The notes beneath the pieces were generated by a model. It searched no databases, was not told the origin of the DNA, and saw nothing but the letters and a program-made list of their open reading frames with translations. From Thermicanus aegyptius DSM 12793 (GTDB lineage Bacteria > Bacillota > Bacilli > Thermicanales > Thermicanaceae): a stretch of 64,000 nt of DNA. This document shows positions 3,847 to 61,432 of this stretch, piece by piece. The first letter of the stretch is position 1. Every line of letters starts with the position of its first letter. Location: the NCBI RefSeq assembly GCF_000510645.1, contig NZ_KI783301.1, forward strand, positions 1,122,705 through 1,186,704, written 5' to 3'. A program made the translations under genes and the position numbers.

Positions 3847-4045
3847 AGAGTAAGCTTTTGAATGTACAATATGCGGATTCACCTCGATGATGGAGAAGTT
3901 CGACGAAACTCGTTTCGAGGGAGTCAGGTTTTTGAGCCTTTTTTGGTGCTGAAAAGGTGAAGACGGATAAGGGGTGAAGAGAAGGGGCCCGAAAACTTTC
4001 CTCCAATGGTTTCAGGAAAGCCAGGGGTTTTGAGGGGAGTGGGGA

Positions 4046-4270
4046 GTGGTTTCGGGCAAATTCGTCGATAGAGTGATCTCGACGACCCATTGTACCACTC
4101 CTGCCGTTGCTGGGCTGGCCAAGATGCGGGCCCGCTTCGGTTTTGCTTTGTGCGTGATGCTGGCAATGGCATCGGGGAGGGCGCGGGAGAGACAGCAAGA
4201 ACGCATGAGGAGCTTGATTCGAAGCGTGTCCGAAGCGGAATGCGATCGAAGGCGGGGCTCCTGGGCCTGA
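4046..4270 (+). pseudogene. C-terminal fragment of a DDE transposase
   Basis: Only the end of the protein is recognisable: AKMRARFGFALCVMLAMASG followed by RARERQQERMRSLIR. This matches the fragment at 565-774 (KMRTGLALCAMLA) and is the last helix of the same DDE_Tnp_1-type transposase family. The N-terminal part of the ORF is unrelated sequence. It separates the sdpI pair from sdpA. Confidence 0.55.
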
Positions 4271-4309
4271 TAACCCAGAACCTGCCCGTGGTTCAGCATG
4301 GCCTGAACC
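4261..4309 (+). repeat. Two adjacent hairpins at a transposon edge
   Basis: CTGGG/CCCAG (4261-4278) and GGTTCAG/CTGAACC (4290-4309, 6-base loop) are two perfect consecutive inverted repeats straight after the transposase fragment. They probably belong to the element end. Confidence 0.4.
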
Positions 4310-4388
4310 GTCCAATATGTGGTTGATAAACCATATCATGGAAATGCCGAACCACCAAGCCGATTGGATTCGTGCTGAAGGTCCAGAG

Positions 4389-4420
4389 AAAAAGGGATTT
4401 CGAAAAAAGCCCTTTTTTAT
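4389..4420 (+). terminator. Terminator-like hairpin just upstream of sdpA
   Basis: AAAAAGGG and CCCTTTTT form an 8-bp stem with a 13-base loop, followed by further T. It ends 33 bases before the sdpA start, so it could insulate sdpA from upstream transcripts or act as an attenuator. Stability is modest. Confidence 0.35.
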
Positions 4421-4452
4421 AAATATTGCATTTTTAGCAAGAAGGTGTTGAT

Positions 4453-4983
4453 ATGGAAAGAAGGCCAAATCTGTTTTTATTTGTGGTTGTAATCAGTGCA
4501 GGCTTGTTAGTCTTTCTTTTGAGTGCCCTTCAGCTCACGCTTCCCAACAATCCAACACGTGTATTAAAGAATATGACGATAAGTAAGATTTTTCCACAAG
4601 GTTGGGGATTTTATTCCATCTCTCCCCGAGAAGAGCAAATTATCTTATACGACGAAAATGGCAATCTGGCAGTTGATTGGCCTAACGCCAGTCTAAGTAA
4701 TCTTTTCGGTCTTCTGCGAAAAGGGCGAGCACAAGGGCTGGAGGTCGGGATTGTGTCTGCAGAACTTCAAGAAAATGATTTTACTCAGACAGAAGGTAAT
4801 CTGAAAGAGGCTATCAAATCATACCACGGAAGAATAATTACAGTAAAAAACCCGACCCCTAATGCCATGATAAGCGGGAAATATTTTGTAGTTAAATATC
4901 AAATCGTACCGTGGACTTGGGCACGCTTGATAAAGCAAGAAGATGCCCCAGCTAAGATTGTTGAGGTGAATGTCGTTGATTAA
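4453..4983 (+). CDS. sdpA: SdpA-family toxin maturation protein
   Basis: The 176-residue protein begins with a membrane anchor (about residues 7-28) and then carries FPQGWGFYSISPREEQIILY, the hallmark of SdpA-family proteins. In B. subtilis SdpA works with SdpB, at the membrane or in the cytosol, to turn secreted SdpC into active SDP peptide; the mechanism is not settled. AAGGTG lies five bases before ATG. The end overlaps sdpB by 14 bases, so the two are translationally coupled as in the classic operon. sdpC lies upstream rather than downstream, and IS fragments intervene, so the ancestral A-B-C order has been broken. Confidence 0.85.
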   Translation: MERRPNLFLFVVVISAGLLVFLLSALQLTLPNNPTRVLKNMTISKIFPQGWGFYSISPREEQIILYDENGNLAVDWPNASLSNLFGLLRKGRAQGLEVGIVSAELQENDFTQTEGNLKEAIKSYHGRIITVKNPTPNAMISGKYFVVKYQIVPWTWARLIKQEDAPAKIVEVNVVD

Positions 4984-5926
4984 GAGGATAAATGAAAAAA
5001 TGATAAATTTTGCCCTTGCAAATAATCCATTCACCAACGTGTACGGACTTGCTCGTTCCATGATGGCTTTTTCCACGTTTTTGCTCTTCTTATTCAATAA
5101 AACTGAGTGGCTCTTCCGACCAGCTCAAGGGCTCTCAGAAATCGATATGAGTCAAAATCTTGTGCAGAAGATATCCTTTTTTAACTTGTTTCCGAATCAC
5201 CTGGAGGTCGCCCGGTGGATCATAGTGATCCTTATGTTGATTGTTATGTCTGGATGGCGACCAAGAATCACTGGGATTATTCACTTCTGGATTGCGTTTT
5301 CAGTGTTTAATAGTGCCATCCTTTTAGACGGGGGAGAACAAGTTCTAACCGTGATGACACTTATTCTTTTACCCATTACTCTCTTGGACGATCGTAAGTG
5401 GCATTGGTCAATGCCCGAAACCAGGGCAGGAAGTGCAGCCTATTTATACAAAGTTATGGGAGCTCATGTTTTTATTACCTTCGCGCGTCTACAGCTCTCT
5501 ATCTTATACGGGCAGGCTGCTATTGAAAGACTTAAAAATCCTGAGTGGTTAGACGGAACGGCTGTTTACTATTTCTTTCAGATACCGATGCTCGGTATCA
5601 CCGAGACAATGAAATCACTGTTAAACCCGATCTTGACCTCCCCCTTTGTATTTTTTATTACTTGGGGCGTAACTATCGTAGAGTTATTCCTTGCTTTTGG
5701 ATTTTTGGCTCCGAAGAATAGATGGAAGTACTTTCTCGCTTCAGGGGTGTTCTTACACTTGGGAATCGCGGTCTTGCTTGGTCTTTGGACGTTCTCTCTC
5801 ACGATGATTGCTTGCTTGATCGTTTCATATGTACCAGAAGAAAAGATGTTGGGGCTTAAGTGGTTAAGCAAATGGTTTAATAGAAAAGACGTATATACGG
5901 AATTACAGAACAATCCAGCACTTTAG
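4970..5926 (+). CDS. sdpB: SdpB-family polytopic membrane protein (HTTM-like)
   Basis: This is a 318-residue protein with about seven to eight membrane helices, the length and topology of SdpB (about 320 residues). Recognisable segments are NPFTNVYGLARSMMAFSTFL near the N-terminus, IIHFWIAFSVFNSAILLDGG in the middle and LSILYGQAAIERLKNPEWLD, the conserved stretch shared with HTTM (vitamin-K-dependent carboxylase-like) membrane domains. It overlaps sdpA. It is required with SdpA for SDP toxin activity in B. subtilis. A DCC-family thiol oxidoreductase follows 318 bases later, a partner type often found beside HTTM proteins. The frame is intact. Confidence 0.85.
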   Translation: MSLIKRINEKMINFALANNPFTNVYGLARSMMAFSTFLLFLFNKTEWLFRPAQGLSEIDMSQNLVQKISFFNLFPNHLEVARWIIVILMLIVMSGWRPRITGIIHFWIAFSVFNSAILLDGGEQVLTVMTLILLPITLLDDRKWHWSMPETRAGSAAYLYKVMGAHVFITFARLQLSILYGQAAIERLKNPEWLDGTAVYYFFQIPMLGITETMKSLLNPILTSPFVFFITWGVTIVELFLAFGFLAPKNRWKYFLASGVFLHLGIAVLLGLWTFSLTMIACLIVSYVPEEKMLGLKWLSKWFNRKDVYTELQNNPAL

Positions 5927-53274: not shown

Positions 53275-53946
53275 GTGAAGCTGCTACTGGCAGAGGATGA
53301 TCTTCGGCTCGGGCGTTTGGTCCGGCATATGTTGGAGAAAGAGGGGCATCAGGTAACCTGGGTACATGAGGGACAAGAAGCATATCAGGAAGCGATGGTT
53401 GGTGAGTTTGATCTTCTTATCCTCGATTGGATGCTGCCGAAGATGAGCGGCATTGAGGTCCTACACCGCCTCCGTGAAGAGGGATTCCAGGGAGGGGTTC
53501 TCATGTTGACGGCGAAGGATGAGGTGGAGGATCGGGTAAAAGGGTTAAATACCGGCGCCGACGATTATTTGGTAAAACCCTTTGAATTTCCAGAGCTCTT
53601 CGCACGCATCCGGGCGCTCGGGAGGAGGAGTTTTACCCCGTTTAAGGAAGATCAGGTGAAGGCGGGAAATCTCCTTCTCAATACGGTGACTCGTACGTTG
53701 ATCAGAGAGGGGAGGGAGATCCCCCTCACCCTGCGGGAGTTTCAGTTGATGGAGCTTTTTATGCGGAATCCGGGGCAGGTCCTCCCCCGGGAGCTGATCT
53801 GGGACAGGATTTGGGGATATGATGCCGATGTGACAAGCAATATTTTGGATGCAACGGTGAAGCTCCTGCGGAAGAAGATCGAGGATCCGGATGGAAAGCG
53901 AATCATTCACAGCATCCGAGGAATCGGATATAAATTGGAGGTTTAA
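53275..53946 (+). CDS. OmpR-family response regulator
   Basis: GTG 53275 gives 223 residues: receiver with Glu7/Asp8, phosphoacceptor Asp51 (LILDWMLP), Thr79 and Lys101 (YLVKPFEF), then a winged helix with LTLREFQLMELFMRNPGQVL and SNILDATVKLLRKKIEDPDG. This is the CiaR/ArlR-like subgroup. The kinase follows one base later. Upstream, TTTTCA at 53194-53199 and 53205-53210 repeat at 11-base distance, as OmpR-family sites do, and TATGAT (53221-53226) may be the -10, so autoregulation is possible. The stimulus and target genes are not evident. Confidence 0.88.
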   Translation: MKLLLAEDDLRLGRLVRHMLEKEGHQVTWVHEGQEAYQEAMVGEFDLLILDWMLPKMSGIEVLHRLREEGFQGGVLMLTAKDEVEDRVKGLNTGADDYLVKPFEFPELFARIRALGRRSFTPFKEDQVKAGNLLLNTVTRTLIREGREIPLTLREFQLMELFMRNPGQVLPRELIWDRIWGYDADVTSNILDATVKLLRKKIEDPDGKRIIHSIRGIGYKLEV

Positions 53947-53947
53947 G

Positions 53948-55450
53948 GTGTTCCGTCGACTTCGTCATCGTTTAACCTTATTATTTACCTTTCTGCTCAT
54001 GATTTTCCTCCTCGCTTTTATGGGGATTACCTATTTCTCCTTCTCCTATTTCCTCTACCATGATCGTTATGTCCAGGTGATGGGGCTGGTGAGGAATGAA
54101 TTGGGGGACCATTCGGAATTATTCGTCACCGACGCAAAAGGGAAGTCCGACCATGGCGTGGGGAAGGGAATCTCCAATGGGAAGGGAACCGTAACGGGAG
54201 TAAAGGGGGAGGAAAAGGAAAATGAGGATGTTGATGAACGGGAAGGAAGTATCTCGGGCGATGGCACTCTCAAGGGAGAGGATCATCGGGAACTTCGCCT
54301 GATTAACGGCGATGAGATCCGGCTCTCCACCCCGTCGAACAGCTTCTATTATCTTTTCTCTGAGGAGGGGCGTTTTCTCCATGGGGACGAGTCGCTCCAT
54401 GAGCTGAGGAAAGAGATTTTTCAAAAACTGAATGGCTGGGTTCCAAGAGAAGAGGAATACCGGTTGATGGATTTTACGACAGGAGAAGGAGCGACCCTCC
54501 ATTTTCTCGTGGGAGGCAGAGAAGTGATACAGGAGGGAAAGCCTCTCGGCCTCGTCTATGCCGGGGTGGATATTACGCCGGAGAAGAATGCCTTGGACCG
54601 ACTGATGGTTCTTCTGGGGGGACTCAGCCTCCTCTTTCTCCTGATCTCCTACATCCTGGGACAGTTTATGGCGGGAAGGGCCATGCGCCCGATCCATCAG
54701 TCCTTTCAACGGCAACGGGAATTCGTGGCGGATGCTTCCCATGAGCTGCGCTCCCCTTTGAGTGTCTTACAAGCTTCCCTGGATGTGATCGAGGCAGAAG
54801 AGGGGGAGAAGTTTTCTTCTTTCTCTCACCAGATTTTACAGGATATGAAAGATGAGACCCGCCGAATGGGGCGGTTAACCCAGGATCTTTTAACCCTGGC
54901 CCGAGCCGATTCCGATGCCATTCAGTTGGAAAAAACCGATTTTAACCTGGCGGAGATGGGACGATCGGTCATCCGTACGTTCCAATCCATGGCGAAGCAG
55001 AAGGAGATCGTCTTGGATTTCCAAGGTCCCGAATCACTGTTTCTCTATGCCGATGAAGAAAGAATGCGGCAGCTTCTCACCATCCTTCTGGATAATGCTG
55101 TGAAATACACGCCTAAGCAAGGAAAGGTTCATCTCCAAATGGAAGAAAGCGGAAGAACCGGGCGAAAGAAGGTCGTTATCCAGGTGAGGGATACGGGCAT
55201 CGGCATTCCTGCAGAAAAGCTCCCCCGTATTTTTGACCGCTTTTATCGGGTGGACAAGGTGCGCTCCCGGGAACAAGGAGGAGCGGGATTGGGGCTTTCC
55301 ATCGCCAAATGGATCGTCGAGGCTCATGATGGAGAGATTCGGGTGGAGAGCAAAGAAGGAGAGGGGACTACGTTTACCGTTTTGCTGCCTCTATCTCCAT
55401 CTCCTTCCCCGTATATCGACGGTGGGCATTTACATCCTCCTTCGACATAG
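53948..55450 (+). CDS. Sensor histidine kinase with a low-complexity outer loop
   Basis: GTG 53948, six bases after TTGGAGG, gives 500 residues. Helices at about 11-35 and 220-241 enclose an extracytoplasmic domain of about 185 residues. Its first part (about 60-115) is a hydrophilic Gly/Lys/Glu/Asp-rich tract, the rest (FYYLFSEEGRFLHGDESLHE to LGLVYAGVDIT) is PAS-like. HisKA has His265 in ADASHELRSPLSVLQASL; HATPase boxes are TILLDNAVKYTP, DTGIGI, FYRVDK and GGAGLGLSIAKWIVEAH. The longer ORF start at 53891 lies inside the regulator gene. The pair with the preceding regulator is certain; the ligand is unknown. Confidence 0.87.
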   Translation: MFRRLRHRLTLLFTFLLMIFLLAFMGITYFSFSYFLYHDRYVQVMGLVRNELGDHSELFVTDAKGKSDHGVGKGISNGKGTVTGVKGEEKENEDVDEREGSISGDGTLKGEDHRELRLINGDEIRLSTPSNSFYYLFSEEGRFLHGDESLHELRKEIFQKLNGWVPREEEYRLMDFTTGEGATLHFLVGGREVIQEGKPLGLVYAGVDITPEKNALDRLMVLLGGLSLLFLLISYILGQFMAGRAMRPIHQSFQRQREFVADASHELRSPLSVLQASLDVIEAEEGEKFSSFSHQILQDMKDETRRMGRLTQDLLTLARADSDAIQLEKTDFNLAEMGRSVIRTFQSMAKQKEIVLDFQGPESLFLYADEERMRQLLTILLDNAVKYTPKQGKVHLQMEESGRTGRKKVVIQVRDTGIGIPAEKLPRIFDRFYRVDKVRSREQGGAGLGLSIAKWIVEAHDGEIRVESKEGEGTTFTVLLPLSPSPSPYIDGGHLHPPST

Positions 55451-55698: not shown

Positions 55699-56154
55699 TT
55701 ACTTTTTGTTGGGGGCATTTCTCCCTCGCTCTCTTTTTGATTTGCGCTTCACGACCTTTTCCCCTTCTTGTCGGGATTCGCATTCCTGGCAGATCAGCAA
55801 CCCTTCGATGATCCCCTCTACTTTGATTTGTTTATCTCTGGACAACTGCCGGAACTTATGGAGGACCTTGGTTTCCTCAGGCAGGAGATGAATGTTCCCC
55901 AGGTTAATCTCCCCTTTTTCCTCCGTTCTCCCAGGTTTTTCAACGCTTGTTGGATCTTCCCCGGTTAAAAGCCATTCCATCGTAACGGAACACAGTTTTG
56001 CGATCCGATAAAGGATCATGGCTTCCGGAATGCGATTTTTCGAGATGTAATTGGTCAATGCCTGGGTTGAGATGTTCAGCTTCTCCGCCGCGCTCTTTTG
56101 GGTAAGTCCCGTTTTTTTTATGGCTGACTTTAACCTCGTTCCGAAACCCTCCAA
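55699..56154 (-). CDS. XRE-family transcriptional regulator
   Basis: Minus-strand TTG 56154 (GGGAGGCG about nine bases before) gives 151 residues. The N-terminal HTH_3 domain (FGTRLKSAIKKTGLTQKSAA, EKLNISTQALTNYISKNRIP, then SVTMEWLLTGEDP) is the phage-repressor type. The C-terminal half has a helical part with LPEETKVLHKFRQLSRDKQI and a Lys/Arg-rich tail containing CQEC. It is divergent from the chemosensory operon, and an inverted repeat flanks that operon's -35, so it is a good candidate for its repressor. Confidence 0.82.
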   Translation of the reverse strand: MEGFGTRLKSAIKKTGLTQKSAAEKLNISTQALTNYISKNRIPEAMILYRIAKLCSVTMEWLLTGEDPTSVEKPGRTEEKGEINLGNIHLLPEETKVLHKFRQLSRDKQIKVEGIIEGLLICQECESRQEGEKVVKRKSKRERGRNAPNKK

Positions 56155-56186
56155 CCGTGTACGCCTCCCACTTATTTAACGATTGT

Positions 56187-56214
56187 TGTATAAATACAGG
56201 CATACTGTTCTCAA
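56187..56214 (-). promoter_or_regulatory. Promoter of the XRE gene, minus strand
   Basis: On the minus strand TTGAGA (56214-56209) and TATACA (56192-56187) are 16 bases apart. A small palindrome GTTCT-CAAA-AGAAC (56207-56220) covers the -35 and may be an autoregulatory operator. Confidence 0.5.
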
Positions 56215-56260
56215 AAGAACCGCAAGTTATTCTGGTTTGTTACGATTTTTTGTCGGACAA

Positions 56261-56309
56261 ACATTTGTAGTATTTTTATCTTGACATACAACAAATGTAG
56301 TATTATGAT
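56261..56309 (+). promoter_or_regulatory. Promoter and likely operator of the chemosensory operon
   Basis: TTGACA (56281-56286), 17-base spacer, TATGAT (56304-56309) is a good sigma-A promoter. ACATTTGT (56261-56268) and ACAAATGT (56291-56298) form an 8-bp inverted repeat on either side of the -35, and TGTAGTATT occurs in both halves as a direct repeat. This fits binding of a dimeric XRE protein. Confidence 0.65.
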
Positions 56310-56548
56310 AGAAGGGGTGGTATACTTAAACAAAGATGGATGTATATCATAGTAATTCTACCACACCTTAGAGCCGGGGATAAAACGTGGGAAATGGAAG
56401 AAGGGGGCGATCCTGCGCCGAAAGACCGAGGTTATCCGACGACGCAAACCTGAATCATGAACTCTTTTGGGAAGATTCGCAATAGGGGAAGGATTGATCT
56501 TCTTATTACGTATCGGTCTATTAAAAATGATGAAAATGGAGTGATAGG
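56310..56548 (+). other. Long structured-looking 5' leader of the mcp gene
   Basis: About 230 bases between promoter and gene. GGCG-ATCCTG-CGCC and GGTT...AACC hairpins with an intervening GAAAGACCGAGG and GACGACGCAAACC are reminiscent of riboswitch elements, but no known class fits (see the rejected list). It may contain a regulatory RNA. Confidence 0.3.
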
Positions 56549-58150
56549 ATGTTGCGTTGGTTTTTAAACTTAAGGACCTCTGTGAAACTGATTTCCGCAT
56601 TTGTGGTTCTGGCCCTCATTTTAGTGTTTGTCGGGTATTATGGATTGATGAATATGGAAAAATTGAATTCCAGTCTGGACGACATGTACAATAAACGGCT
56701 GGTGCCCATCAGCGAAGTGAAAGATATCGAGTCGCGATTCGAGCAATTAAGAACCAGCTTATTGGCGATGCACTATGTATATCAGACACAGAAAGAGAAA
56801 GAGGATACCTTGAAAGCGATGGAAGGGGTGAAAAAAGAGATTGAATCCCTCATTTCCACTTATGGGAATCGTTCCTTTGATCAAAAGGAACATGAAGAAT
56901 TATATAAAAAGGTGGGGCCGGCTTGGCAGAATTTTAAGAATACGATTGAACAAGCGGTTCAACTTAGCCTGAACGGCAACGATGCTGAATTTACGAACTA
57001 TCTGTTAAATGGGGGGTATATGAAAGCGAGGGATGACTTAAAGAAGGCATTAAATGATTTAATCGTTTTGAATACCAACAGCGCGGTGCAAGCGGAGAAG
57101 GAGGGGAAAAACCTCTATTCCACGTCACGTGTCATCACCATTTCAGTCATCCTCATTTCATTCCTTCTCAGCATCGGTTTGGGTTACTTTATCTCACAAG
57201 TTATTGCGAAACCCCTAAATCGAGTGGTTGGCTTGGTGAGTAAGGTGGCGGAAGGAGACTTGCGGGAGACCGTAGATATAAGGACGAAGGATGAGATCGG
57301 GCAACTGGCGCAATCGATGAACAACATGGTGTTGAGTTTGCGGGAAATCGTCGGTAAGATCCTGGCTTCGGCGGAAAGTGTCTCCTCCGCATCGGAAGAA
57401 ATCTCGGCCAGCACTGAAGAGATTGCCAGCGGAAGTACCAGCCAGGCGAATTCCGCACAAACGATGAGCGAACTTTTTAAAGAATTAAATACGGCCATTA
57501 ATGCTGTTGCCGGTAGCGCGGAGCAGGCGTCAGATTTATCGAACAGGACAAGGGATATCGCAGAAGAGGGAGGTAAAGTGGTCCGCACATCGATTGAGGG
57601 CATGAGTTTGGTGAATCAACATATGTCTCGATTGGAGGATGATTCGAATAAAATCGGCGAAATTATTGAAGTCATCGACGATATTGCCGATCAGACCAAT
57701 TTGCTCGCTTTAAATGCGGCGATTGAAGCGGCGAGGGCCGGGGACCAAGGGCGTGGGTTCGCGGTGGTGGCGGATGAGGTGCGTAAACTGGCTGAACGGA
57801 GCAGCGAGGCGACAAAACAGATTACCGCCATTATTAAAGGGATGCAGGAAAATACCCGGCAGAGCGTAAAGGCGGTGCAGGATGGAACGTCCGCTTCGCA
57901 AAAGATCGGAGAAGCATTTGAGGAAATCCTGTCGATGGTGAACGAGTCGGCCCGTCGGGTCACGGAAATTGCCGCCGCTAGCGAGGAGCAGGCCGCGCAA
58001 TCTTCTGAGGTGATGAGTTTGATTGAGGGGATCTCCGCAGCCACGGAAGAAGCAGTCGCAAGCAATGAAGAGACCGCTTCGGCGGCTCAGTCTTTAGCCC
58101 AAATGGCCGAGGAATTAAACAACGCTGTTTCGATCTTTAAAATTAACTAA
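56549..58150 (+). CDS. Methyl-accepting chemotaxis protein with 4HB sensor
   Basis: 533 residues: helix 1 (about 11-31), an outer four-helix bundle (about 32-188; [20 protein letters not shown]), helix 2 (about 190-212), HAMP (about 212-264; [20 protein letters not shown]) and a signalling coiled coil with the invariant tip [20 protein letters not shown]. 4HB domains usually bind small ligands. ATG 56549 follows GGAGTGATAGG. No C-terminal pentapeptide is present. It starts a compact chemosensory operon with its own CheW, CheA and CheY. Confidence 0.92.
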
Positions 58151-58243
58151 CTTTTTCCATGCAAATCGAGGGACTGTTCCAACATCGATCCATCATCTAG
58201 GGATAGCCCCTCTTTTCCATAGAAACGTAAGAGGGTGAATGGT

Positions 58244-58669
58244 ATGGAGACCGATCAACAAAACCAATATATTGAGGTAGGCATTGGAAAGGAAAGATAT
58301 GCCTTAAATATTTATGACATCCATGAAATTATCAAAATGCAGGACATTACCGAGATCCCCAACAGCAAGCCTTATGTGAAAGGCGTAATCAATTTGCGCG
58401 GGAAAATCGTGCCGATTATCAGTCTGCGGAACCTTTTCGGCTTGGGGGAAGAATCCTATACGAAATCAACCCGTATCGTTGTCGTGAATCATGCCAATGA
58501 GATGGTGGGAATTGTGGTGGATCGGGTGAACCAAGTAACGACCATCACGGACATCCAGCCTCCGCCGGAAAAGATGGGTAAGGTCAAAGGGTCCTTTTTC
58601 TCAGGGATCGGACACACCCAGAATGGTTTGGTCAGCATATTGATGATGGAACGGGTACTTTCCGAGTAG
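58244..58669 (+). CDS. cheW: Chemotaxis coupling protein CheW
   Basis: ATG 58244 after AGAGGGTG gives 141 residues. The SH3-like CheW pattern is complete: FVEV-like YIEVGIGKERYALNIYDIHE, IPNSKPYVKGVINLRGKIVP and MVGIVVDRVNQVTTI. It links the receptor to CheA. GTG 58235 is an alternative start. Only 11 bases separate it from cheA. Confidence 0.93.
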   Translation: METDQQNQYIEVGIGKERYALNIYDIHEIIKMQDITEIPNSKPYVKGVINLRGKIVPIISLRNLFGLGEESYTKSTRIVVVNHANEMVGIVVDRVNQVTTITDIQPPPEKMGKVKGSFFSGIGHTQNGLVSILMMERVLSE

Positions 58670-58680
58670 GGGATGAAAAA

Positions 58681-60717
58681 ATGGAGTCATCATCTTTGCC
58701 GGAGTTGACCGGTCTATTTTTAGACGAGGTTGAAGAACAACTCCAAATCATGGAACAAGAAATATTGAAGCTGGAGCAATATGGAGAGTCGGAAGAGACG
58801 ATACAGAGCCTTTTTAGGGCCGCCCATACGTTAAAAGGATCATCGGCCACCATGGGTTTCGATGAGATGAAGCGGTTGACGCATGAATTGGAACACGTTT
58901 TGGATCGTTTGCGGAATCGCCACTTGCGGGCAACAAAATCACTGATCAATTTGTTATTTAAAGGTTTGGATCAGTTGAGGGTATTAAAAGCGGAATTTGC
59001 CGAAGGTGTGGGGACGTATACGGAGATCGGCCCATTACTCGAAGAACTGCAACACGCTGCCGATGGGGAGGCTGATCCAGTAGAAGGAAGGAATGAAGTA
59101 CCGGAGGCTTTCCTATTCACCGGAGATCCAGCGATTGTATCAAAAGTTCAAGACGCACTGGAAAGCGGCCTGAAGGTTTACGAGATTGAAGTACATCTTT
59201 CTCCCGATTGTCCCATGAAATCGGCTCGCGGTTTAGTGATTCACAATCAGTTGGACGCATGGGGTGATCTTCTGGAAGCCGCCCCCACGCTCGAAGAACT
59301 CAGAAGGGAAGAATCTTTTTCTTTCACGGCACTTCGTTTTTTACTGGCAACGGATGCCGACCCTTCCCGGTTGAAAGAGGCCCTTTTATCCCTGATGGAT
59401 ATTACGGATGTAACCGTTTCTAACTATCATCCGCTGAAGCAAAGTCATCGGTTTGAGCGTATGTCCATTCCCTCGGATGAGCCGGAAAAAAGGACGATCA
59501 GCCCAACGATCGCGGAAAGGGGAAGAGGCGCGCAAACCATCCGGGTGGACGTGGAACGGTTGGAAAACTTGATGAATTTAGTGGGGGAACTGGTTATCGA
59601 CCAAACCAGAATCAGTCAGGTTGAACGTGTTTTACATCATCGTTATTTATCGGATGAAAATGTGGATGAACTTAGACATATTACCGATCATCTTATCCGG
59701 GTGATCGTTGAACTGCAGGATAGTGTCATGAAAGTTCGCATGCTTCCCATCGAACAACTCTTCACTCGTTTTCCCCGGATGGTTCGCGATTTGGCCCAGT
59801 CGTTAAAGAAAGAGGTCGATCTGGTCATTGAAGGAGGTGAAACCGAACTGGACCGAACGGTGATCGAAGAAATCACCGATCCTCTCATTCATTTAATCCG
59901 CAATGCGGTTGATCATGGCATAGAGCCGGCGGAGGAACGGAAACGATTAGGAAAGACAACCAAAGGCCGGCTTCGAATTCGAGCTGCCCATGAAGAGAAC
60001 CAGGTGGTTATCACGGTAGAAGATGATGGTGCCGGAATCGATCCTGTTAAAATGAAGGAATCGGCCCGCCTTAAAGGCATCATTACGGAAGAGGAACTGA
60101 AGAGACTCTCCGATCAAGAAGCGGTCTACTTGATTTTTCGTCCGGGATTTTCCACGGCTTCGTCGGTAAGTGACATCTCCGGACGGGGTGTCGGAATGGA
60201 TATCGTACGGAATCATATCGAAAAATTAAACGGCGTGATCGACATTGAGAGCAAACCGGGGGAAGGGACCCGTTTTAAAATTAAACTCCCTTTAACACTG
60301 GCGATTATTACCGGCTTACTCATCAAGTTAAGCGGAAGGACCTTTATCCTGCCGATGAGCAGTGTGGTGGAAATTGTCCGTATGCCGCCGGAGGCGGTCC
60401 AAACCATCAAAGGAGATACGGTAGTGGTCATCCGGGATCGAGTTTTGCCGGTCATTTGGTTACACGATTATTTTCACCTTCCCCGGGTACCGCAAAAAAA
60501 GAACCACCATCCGATCGTTGTGGTGGGCATTGCGGAAAAACGGTTCGCTTTGATGGTGGATGAATTGATGGGGAATCAAGAGGTTGTCGTTAAATCTTTA
60601 GGAACTTATATAGGCAAAGTCGTGGGGATATCGGGAGCTACCATCTTAGGAGACGGTCGGGTGGCCTTAATCCTCGAAACGGCGGGAATCGATCAATTGA
60701 TCCGTCGTAAGTGGTGA
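58681..60717 (+). CDS. cheA: Chemotaxis histidine kinase CheA
   Basis: 678 residues. Domains in order: HPt (1-110) with phosphoaccepting His49 in FRAAHTLKGSSATMGFDEM; a P2-like region (about 125-265) with two related halves, the first around FLFTGDPAIVSKVQDALESG and the second around FTALRFLLATDADPSRLKEA; dimerisation helices (about 290-345); HATPase (about 345-525) with LIRNAVDHGIEPAEER, DDGAGID and GRGVGMDIV; CheW-like domain (about 530-670). Complete for function. It phosphorylates the CheY-like protein that follows. Confidence 0.93.
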   Translation: MESSSLPELTGLFLDEVEEQLQIMEQEILKLEQYGESEETIQSLFRAAHTLKGSSATMGFDEMKRLTHELEHVLDRLRNRHLRATKSLINLLFKGLDQLRVLKAEFAEGVGTYTEIGPLLEELQHAADGEADPVEGRNEVPEAFLFTGDPAIVSKVQDALESGLKVYEIEVHLSPDCPMKSARGLVIHNQLDAWGDLLEAAPTLEELRREESFSFTALRFLLATDADPSRLKEALLSLMDITDVTVSNYHPLKQSHRFERMSIPSDEPEKRTISPTIAERGRGAQTIRVDVERLENLMNLVGELVIDQTRISQVERVLHHRYLSDENVDELRHITDHLIRVIVELQDSVMKVRMLPIEQLFTRFPRMVRDLAQSLKKEVDLVIEGGETELDRTVIEEITDPLIHLIRNAVDHGIEPAEERKRLGKTTKGRLRIRAAHEENQVVITVEDDGAGIDPVKMKESARLKGIITEEELKRLSDQEAVYLIFRPGFSTASSVSDISGRGVGMDIVRNHIEKLNGVIDIESKPGEGTRFKIKLPLTLAIITGLLIKLSGRTFILPMSSVVEIVRMPPEAVQTIKGDTVVVIRDRVLPVIWLHDYFHLPRVPQKKNHHPIVVVGIAEKRFALMVDELMGNQEVVVKSLGTYIGKVVGISGATILGDGRVALILETAGIDQLIRRKW

Positions 60718-60751
60718 TGTGAATAAACCGGGTGGAAATGAAGGTGGAATG

Positions 60752-61129
60752 ATGAGAGTACTGATTGTCGATGATTCTGCTTTTATGCGCATCAGAATAC
60801 GAAACCTCTTGGAATCGTTGGGACATATCGTTCTGGATGAGGCGACAGATGGCAACGAAGCGATTGTTAAATATGTGGAACTTCGACCTGATCTGGTGAC
60901 GATGGATATCACGATGCCCATTAAAAATGGTATCGAAGCAACCAAAGCGATTCGGGCCTTTGATCCGAAAGCGATGATCTTGATGACTTCCGCGATGGGG
61001 CAGGAAGGGATGGTGAAGGAAGCGATTCTATCCGGGGCATTTGATTTTGTGGTGAAGCCGGTTGATGAAATCCGATTTCTGAATGCCGTATCTAAAGCGG
61101 CCGCCTTACTGATGGCGGACAGGAAATAG
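60752..61129 (+). CDS. cheY: CheY-like single-domain response regulator
   Basis: From ATG 60752 (AAGGTGG four bases before) 125 residues form only a receiver: acidic Asp7/Asp8 (LIVDDSAFMR), phosphoacceptor Asp52 (VTMDITMP), Thr/Ser in LMTSAMGQ and Lys in FDFVVKPV. The sequence MRVLIVDDSAFMR and MGQEGMVKEAI is close to motility CheY of Bacillota. It may act on the flagellar switch or, given the next gene, on transcription. GTG 60719 and ATG 60749 are other possible starts. Confidence 0.88.
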   Translation: MRVLIVDDSAFMRIRIRNLLESLGHIVLDEATDGNEAIVKYVELRPDLVTMDITMPIKNGIEATKAIRAFDPKAMILMTSAMGQEGMVKEAILSGAFDFVVKPVDEIRFLNAVSKAAALLMADRK

Positions 61130-61156
61130 GGAGTAGGAGGGAGGAAGGTGACCATC

Positions 61157-61432
61157 ATGGGCCTTTCGTTGACTGGGACATCTCGCGATGCGACGAATCA
61201 AAGATTGGCTAAAGCAGCGATGACGCTGCAAAAGAAATTCCATTTGACCCGGCGGGAAATGGAACTACTTAAAAAGATCTCACTGTACGGGTATAACAAT
61301 AGGGAGTTGGCCCGAGCATTACGAATTTCGGAGCACACGGTTAAAAATCATTTGAAGAATATTATGATCAAGACGAGAACCAATTCCAGTCGGGAATTGT
61401 TGGCCTTGATTCTACGGGCATCACTTGAATAA
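61157..61432 (+). CDS. Stand-alone LuxR-type HTH protein
   Basis: ATG 61157 after GGAAGGTG gives 91 residues. The C-terminal two thirds are a complete LuxR/GerE DNA-binding domain: LTRREMELLKKISLYGYNNR, ELARALRISEHTVKNHLKNI, MIKTRTNSSRELLALILRAS. The N-terminal 30 residues are short and polar, with no receiver or ligand domain. It is the last gene of the chemosensory operon, 18 bases after the cheY stop, and suggests that the pathway has a transcriptional output, with CheY-like and HTH parts encoded as separate chains. Similar small regulators include GerE. Targets are not known. Confidence 0.75.
   Translation: MGLSLTGTSRDATNQRLAKAAMTLQKKFHLTRREMELLKKISLYGYNNRELARALRISEHTVKNHLKNIMIKTRTNSSRELLALILRASLE

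Follow-up and report, generated by a model that had tools for sequence, protein, structure and literature searches.

The window analyzed here, a 64,000-nucleotide stretch of the Thermicanus aegyptius DSM 12793 genome situated in one 3.66-Mb contig, contains at 55699-61432 a compact set of chemosensory genes accompanied by genes for an XRE-family regulator and a LuxR-type helix-turn-helix (HTH) protein, and the question that it raises is whether this set governs swimming or gene expression. The initial annotation favored a sensory module that changes transcription over one that directs swimming behavior and saw in the receiver and the neighboring HTH protein a NarL-type regulator split into two chains. 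Our analysis leads us to describe the locus as an accessory chemosensory operon with its own receptor, CheW, CheA, and CheY, probably under an XRE repressor, with its output most likely directed to gene expression, at least partly through the HTH protein; taken as a whole, we judge the case for this reading to be evenly poised.

Organization of the operon

The mcp-cheW-cheA-cheY-HTH run of the initial annotation was borne out by open reading frame positions and Pfam domains, with the genes lying consecutively on the forward strand at 56549-61432. The first, mcp (56549-58150), encodes a chemoreceptor with 4HB_MCP_1, HAMP, and MCPsignal domains and three methylation-type sites; it is followed by cheW (58235-58669; CheW domain, 1.5e-36) and by cheA (58681-60717), the product of which is complete from P1 to P5 (Hpt-P2-H-kinase_dim-HATPase_c-CheW) and keeps both the phosphorylation histidine (HTLKG, 49) and the N and G boxes of the ATP site. 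Then come cheY (60719-61129), encoding a stand-alone receiver (Response_reg) and probably starting at ATG 60752 rather than GTG 60719, and a gene for a 94-aa LuxR/GerE-type HTH protein (61148-61432). The intergenic gaps, in operon order, are 84, 11, about 34, and 18 bases; good ribosome sites precede both cheY and the HTH gene, and a scan for terminators within the operon gave 8 matches against 7.5 in shuffled sequences, which is not above chance, so that the genes are likely to be carried on a single transcript. As had been noted, cheB, cheR, cheD, and cheC are missing from the operon; all four are encoded elsewhere in the genome.

Promoter region and the divergent XRE gene

The divergent XRE gene beside the operon was also confirmed (55699-56154, reverse strand); it has a TTG start and encodes a 151-aa XRE-family HTH regulator (HTH_19, 2e-10; HTH_3, 8.7e-10). 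The operon is preceded by a sigma-A-type promoter, TTGACA-17-TATGAT (56281-56309, forward strand; 11 of 12 consensus matches), the -35 element of which is indeed bracketed by a 13-nt inverted repeat (56261-56298, forward strand; arms at 56261-56273 and 56286-56298, 12 of 13 positions complementary), a candidate operator of a kind present in 16 of 3000 Markov-shuffled intergenic regions. The half-site ATACAACAA at 56286 is repeated exactly but inverted at 56183-56191, where its exact complement, TTGTTGTAT, on the reverse strand forms a candidate autoregulatory site upstream of the XRE start; these are two of the three occurrences of ATACAACAA/TTGTTGTAT in the 64 kb. The presence of the half-site at both the XRE gene and the che promoter would fit a repressor that acts locally on the two; judged from these common half-sites, XRE control of the operon is plausible, and the XRE protein is probably such a repressor. 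A regulon extending past the locus was rejected, since CATTTGTWGTA has 5 matches genome-wide against 6 for a reversed control and is not enriched.

The mcp leader (56315-56548, forward strand; about 235 nt) was considered as a riboswitch or other structured RNA, a candidate ruled out because no Rfam family matched at E values up to 1, because its folding was no more stable than that of shuffled sequences, and because no counterpart was present among the 60 relatives searched. An OmpR-type regulator and histidine kinase pair (53275-55450) adjoins the XRE gene on its upstream side. In genome G032 (L045 3716-4360), cheW likewise has a divergent XRE gene ahead of it; the product of that gene is a LexA-like HTH with Peptidase_S24 and resembles the window XRE protein in the HTH alone (42% over 64 residues). 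Members of a tyrosine recombinase family (52-90% identical) stand in the place of the window XRE gene in four genomes, immediately before the accessory che operon and divergent from it (L046 6469-7398, L125 14325-15284, L130 5988-6941, and L137 6660-7733), and the intergenic regions of these recombinase-flanked operons showed no invertible repeat.

A second chemosensory system in the host genome

A flagellar/chemotaxis operon at about 711-738 kb of the genome comprises fliM, fliY, cheY, cheB, cheA, cheW, cheC, cheD, and sigD (genes named by eye from translations), cheR is placed away from it at 856 kb, and more than 10 further receptor genes are present, which makes the window operon a second chemosensory system. 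Since the absence of cheB, cheR, cheC, and cheD is only local and the receptor keeps its methylation-type sites, the lack of a neighboring cheR or cheB, to which the initial annotation had appealed, tells little about output. The cheB gene of the flagellar operon (L049, genome 733141-733785) is called as 214 aa, with a start within the methylesterase part and the receiver domain apparently missing.

The separateness of the second system is supported by its receptor and its kinase. In the window receptor, the HAMP motif and the hairpin tip are 145 residues apart, as compared with 166 in five other receptors of the genome, and the tip lies 141 residues from the C-end, as compared with 161-171 in seven others; the comparison covers the receptor hits that match the search motifs, which five do not. 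Each arm of the window receptor is thus three heptads short of those in the receptors that could be measured. Alignment to Escherichia coli Tsr, a 36H receptor, shows one 7-residue insertion per arm, which places the window receptor in the 38H class and the others in the 44H class. Receptors of the 44H class are tied to F1 systems, and those of the 38H class are tied to F5 systems (PMC10746217; PMC6943060). The window CheA falls within a Bacilli clade of 24 accessory CheAs (support 100/99), apart from F1 CheAs, including the flagellar CheA of its own genome; together, the 38H receptor and the separate CheA clade argue for an array distinct from the flagellar one and likely apart from the 44H flagellar receptors. 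Some relatives in the CheA clade (L045, L127, L130, L132, L134, and L136) have receptor-like proteins of 926-1362 aa with no recognized HAMP motif and a tip near the middle. A plasmid origin was rejected, all CheAs on plasmids being under 60% identical to that of the window.

Regulators recur around the operons of this clade, the domains of each type having been verified in one or two examples. A NarL-type response regulator, mostly with a HisKA_3 kinase, lies upstream in four loci (L126, L128, L132, and L134), a PocR-GAF-LuxR protein is encoded beside the operon in three (L139, L140, and L142), and STAS, HATPase_c_2 (RsbW-like), and SpoIIE-phosphatase genes occur in four (L047, L135, L140, and L142); c-di-GMP enzymes are found in several loci, and cheR/cheB are found in many. 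The counts are not independent, the LuxR-type cases reducing to about three lineages besides that of the window, and this recurrence of LuxR/NarL regulators or partner-switching modules makes a gene expression output plausible. The proposal of a module for transcription rather than swimming therefore stands in part, on its distinctness from the flagellar system and on its clade neighbors, and it loses the support drawn from missing genes. The range of these neighbors, from NarL pairs and LuxR proteins through STAS/RsbW-like/SpoIIE switches to c-di-GMP enzymes, suggests a single sensory core fitted with interchangeable outputs in different Bacilli.

The nearest relative of the operon occurs in a genome of another family, G115 (CheA, 73% identical; MCP, 74%; CheY, about 71%; CheW, close), in the order cheX, cheW, mcp, cheW, cheA, GGDEF-EAL, cheY, cheR, and lacks an adjacent HTH gene. 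Between the two genomes, the flagellar CheAs are just 61% identical over the aligned part, a disparity from which we infer that the module was probably passed laterally. The reading frames of the G115 cheY and cheR genes (L125, about 4000-5400) are each broken by a frameshift, through either decay or assembly error.

The CheY receiver

The window CheY is a stand-alone receiver in which the DD, D, T/S, and K residues are present, it is closest to chemotaxis CheYs, and its best match among solved structures is Thermotoga maritima CheY. In a tree of 57 receivers it pairs with the G115 CheY (100/99) inside the flagellar-type CheYs (98/97) and apart from NarL receivers, and the P2 domain of the window CheA, able to dock CheY, is present. 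At residues invariant in flagellar CheYs, the window and G115 proteins have changes in common, several of which (Q to E, K/R to F, F to V, and V to F) lie on what we take, from general knowledge of CheY structure, to be the alpha4-beta5-alpha5 (output) face. The altered face suggests a partner other than that of flagellar CheYs, without singling one out; because G115 shares the alteration but lacks the HTH gene, the alteration either predates that gene or is independent of it.

The receiver could nonetheless belong to an accessory chemotaxis input, in which the CheY of the second array feeds the flagellar switch or serves the F1 CheA as a phosphate sink, with the HTH gene simply cotranscribed. 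We regard this as a serious possibility, if an improbable one: the protein sits among flagellar-type CheYs and shares 54% identity with the flagellar CheY of its own genome, a closeness that makes a motor effect possible, the host owns a full flagellar operon, and the receptor could share the CheR and CheB encoded elsewhere, but the operon departs from the F1 system in the length class of its receptor and the clade of its CheA, the output face has lost residues otherwise invariant in flagellar CheYs, and the clade neighbors point to transcription or partner switching.

The HTH protein

The HTH protein is an orphan LuxR/GerE domain (PF00196, 4.7e-12), similar to VraR, NarL, and GerE domains; a single-sequence model (mean pLDDT, 76) predicts an extra N-terminal helix at residues 12-31. 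A search of 398 Bacilli genomes gave one close relative, a stand-alone protein in G058 (46%) that is not encoded near che genes. The five-gene order, for which the initial annotation had advised a search, was found neither in these genomes, queried by the HTH protein, nor in a scan of genome contigs that depends on exact short peptides and is hence not exhaustive, and neither source yielded a second genome with a CheY-HTH pair. The contig scan gave 52 HTH matches, nearly all preceded by a receiver at the usual linker distance, the arrangement of NarL-type regulators. One candidate split pair (L094) was rejected, as its receiver groups within the NarL proteins and the gene is probably broken, and no che-linked regulator was present at 3195841, a place in the same genome that matches the HTH protein.

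It is unlikely, in our estimation, that the HTH gene is a recent hitchhiker or an autoregulator of the operon while CheY acts elsewhere, for example, on c-di-GMP enzymes, as the GGDEF-EAL neighbors in relatives would suggest. In favor of such a history are the G115 operon, which lacks the HTH gene and in which cheA and cheY are separated by a GGDEF-EAL gene, and the G058 relative away from che genes; against it are the same-strand position of the HTH gene, the tight 18-base spacing, and the recurrence of LuxR-type genes near the CheA clade. That a NarL-type response regulator was split by gene fission, as the adjacency of receiver and GerE-domain genes and the likeness of the HTH protein to NarL/VraR C-terminal domains might suggest, is highly improbable given a receiver that is not NarL-type in the tree and occurs alone in G115.

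Proposed function and relation to known systems

The reading that we prefer, an accessory operon with an output most likely to gene expression, has in its favor the HTH gene 18 bases past cheY with its own ribosome site; counting against it are the G115 CheY without an HTH partner, the G058 relative away from che genes, a CheY closest to flagellar CheYs, and the failure of the searches to find the CheY-HTH pair in a second genome. Signals from the 4HB receptor would pass through the CheW and CheA of the operon to its CheY, as the intact domains and gene order suggest, and the length class of the receptor, with the CheA clade, would keep the array away from the 44H flagellar receptors. The output would most likely be gene expression, exerted at least partly through the presumably cotranscribed HTH protein, either because phosphorylated CheY binds it or because it sets the levels of the operon or of target genes, and the XRE protein would probably repress the operon and itself. 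Direct binding of a chemotaxis-type CheY to a separately encoded LuxR/GerE HTH protein, giving an array-driven response regulator of two chains that came together from unrelated parts and not by NarL fission, is a proposal that we make with considerable doubt; if CheY does drive the HTH protein, an array of chemotaxis proteins would have been rewired to gene control by one added small DNA-binding protein.

Among known systems, the F1-class flagellar system (CheA/W/Y/B/C/D with 44H receptors) has the same core proteins and a CheY of the same subfamily, but the window operon differs in its 38H receptor, in a CheA that does not group with F1, in the absence of cheB, cheC, cheD, and cheR from the cluster, and in the added HTH gene. 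The 38H receptor is common to the window operon and the F5 class, of which a CheA with an additional CheW domain and the order AW...BR are distinctive (PMC10746217; PMC6943060); the window CheA has one CheW domain only, its operon lacks cheB and cheR, and the comparison is one of features, the CheA tree having no F5 reference. An F5-like extra C-terminal CheW domain is found in CheAs of about 850 aa in some clade relatives (e.g., L047). Chemosensory control of transcription or development is described for Myxococcus xanthus Che3-CrdA and Rhodospirillum centenum Che3 (PMC3510030, PMC3868531), in which a chemosensory kinase has a nonswimming output, as proposed here; CrdA is NtrC-type and R. centenum CheA3/CheS3 are hybrid kinases, whereas the window operon pairs a stand-alone CheY with a small separate HTH protein. 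That protein has the HTH domain family of NarL/FixJ response regulators and, like GerE, stands alone; differences from these known proteins are the predicted extra N-terminal helix and a receiver of CheY type encoded as a polypeptide of its own.
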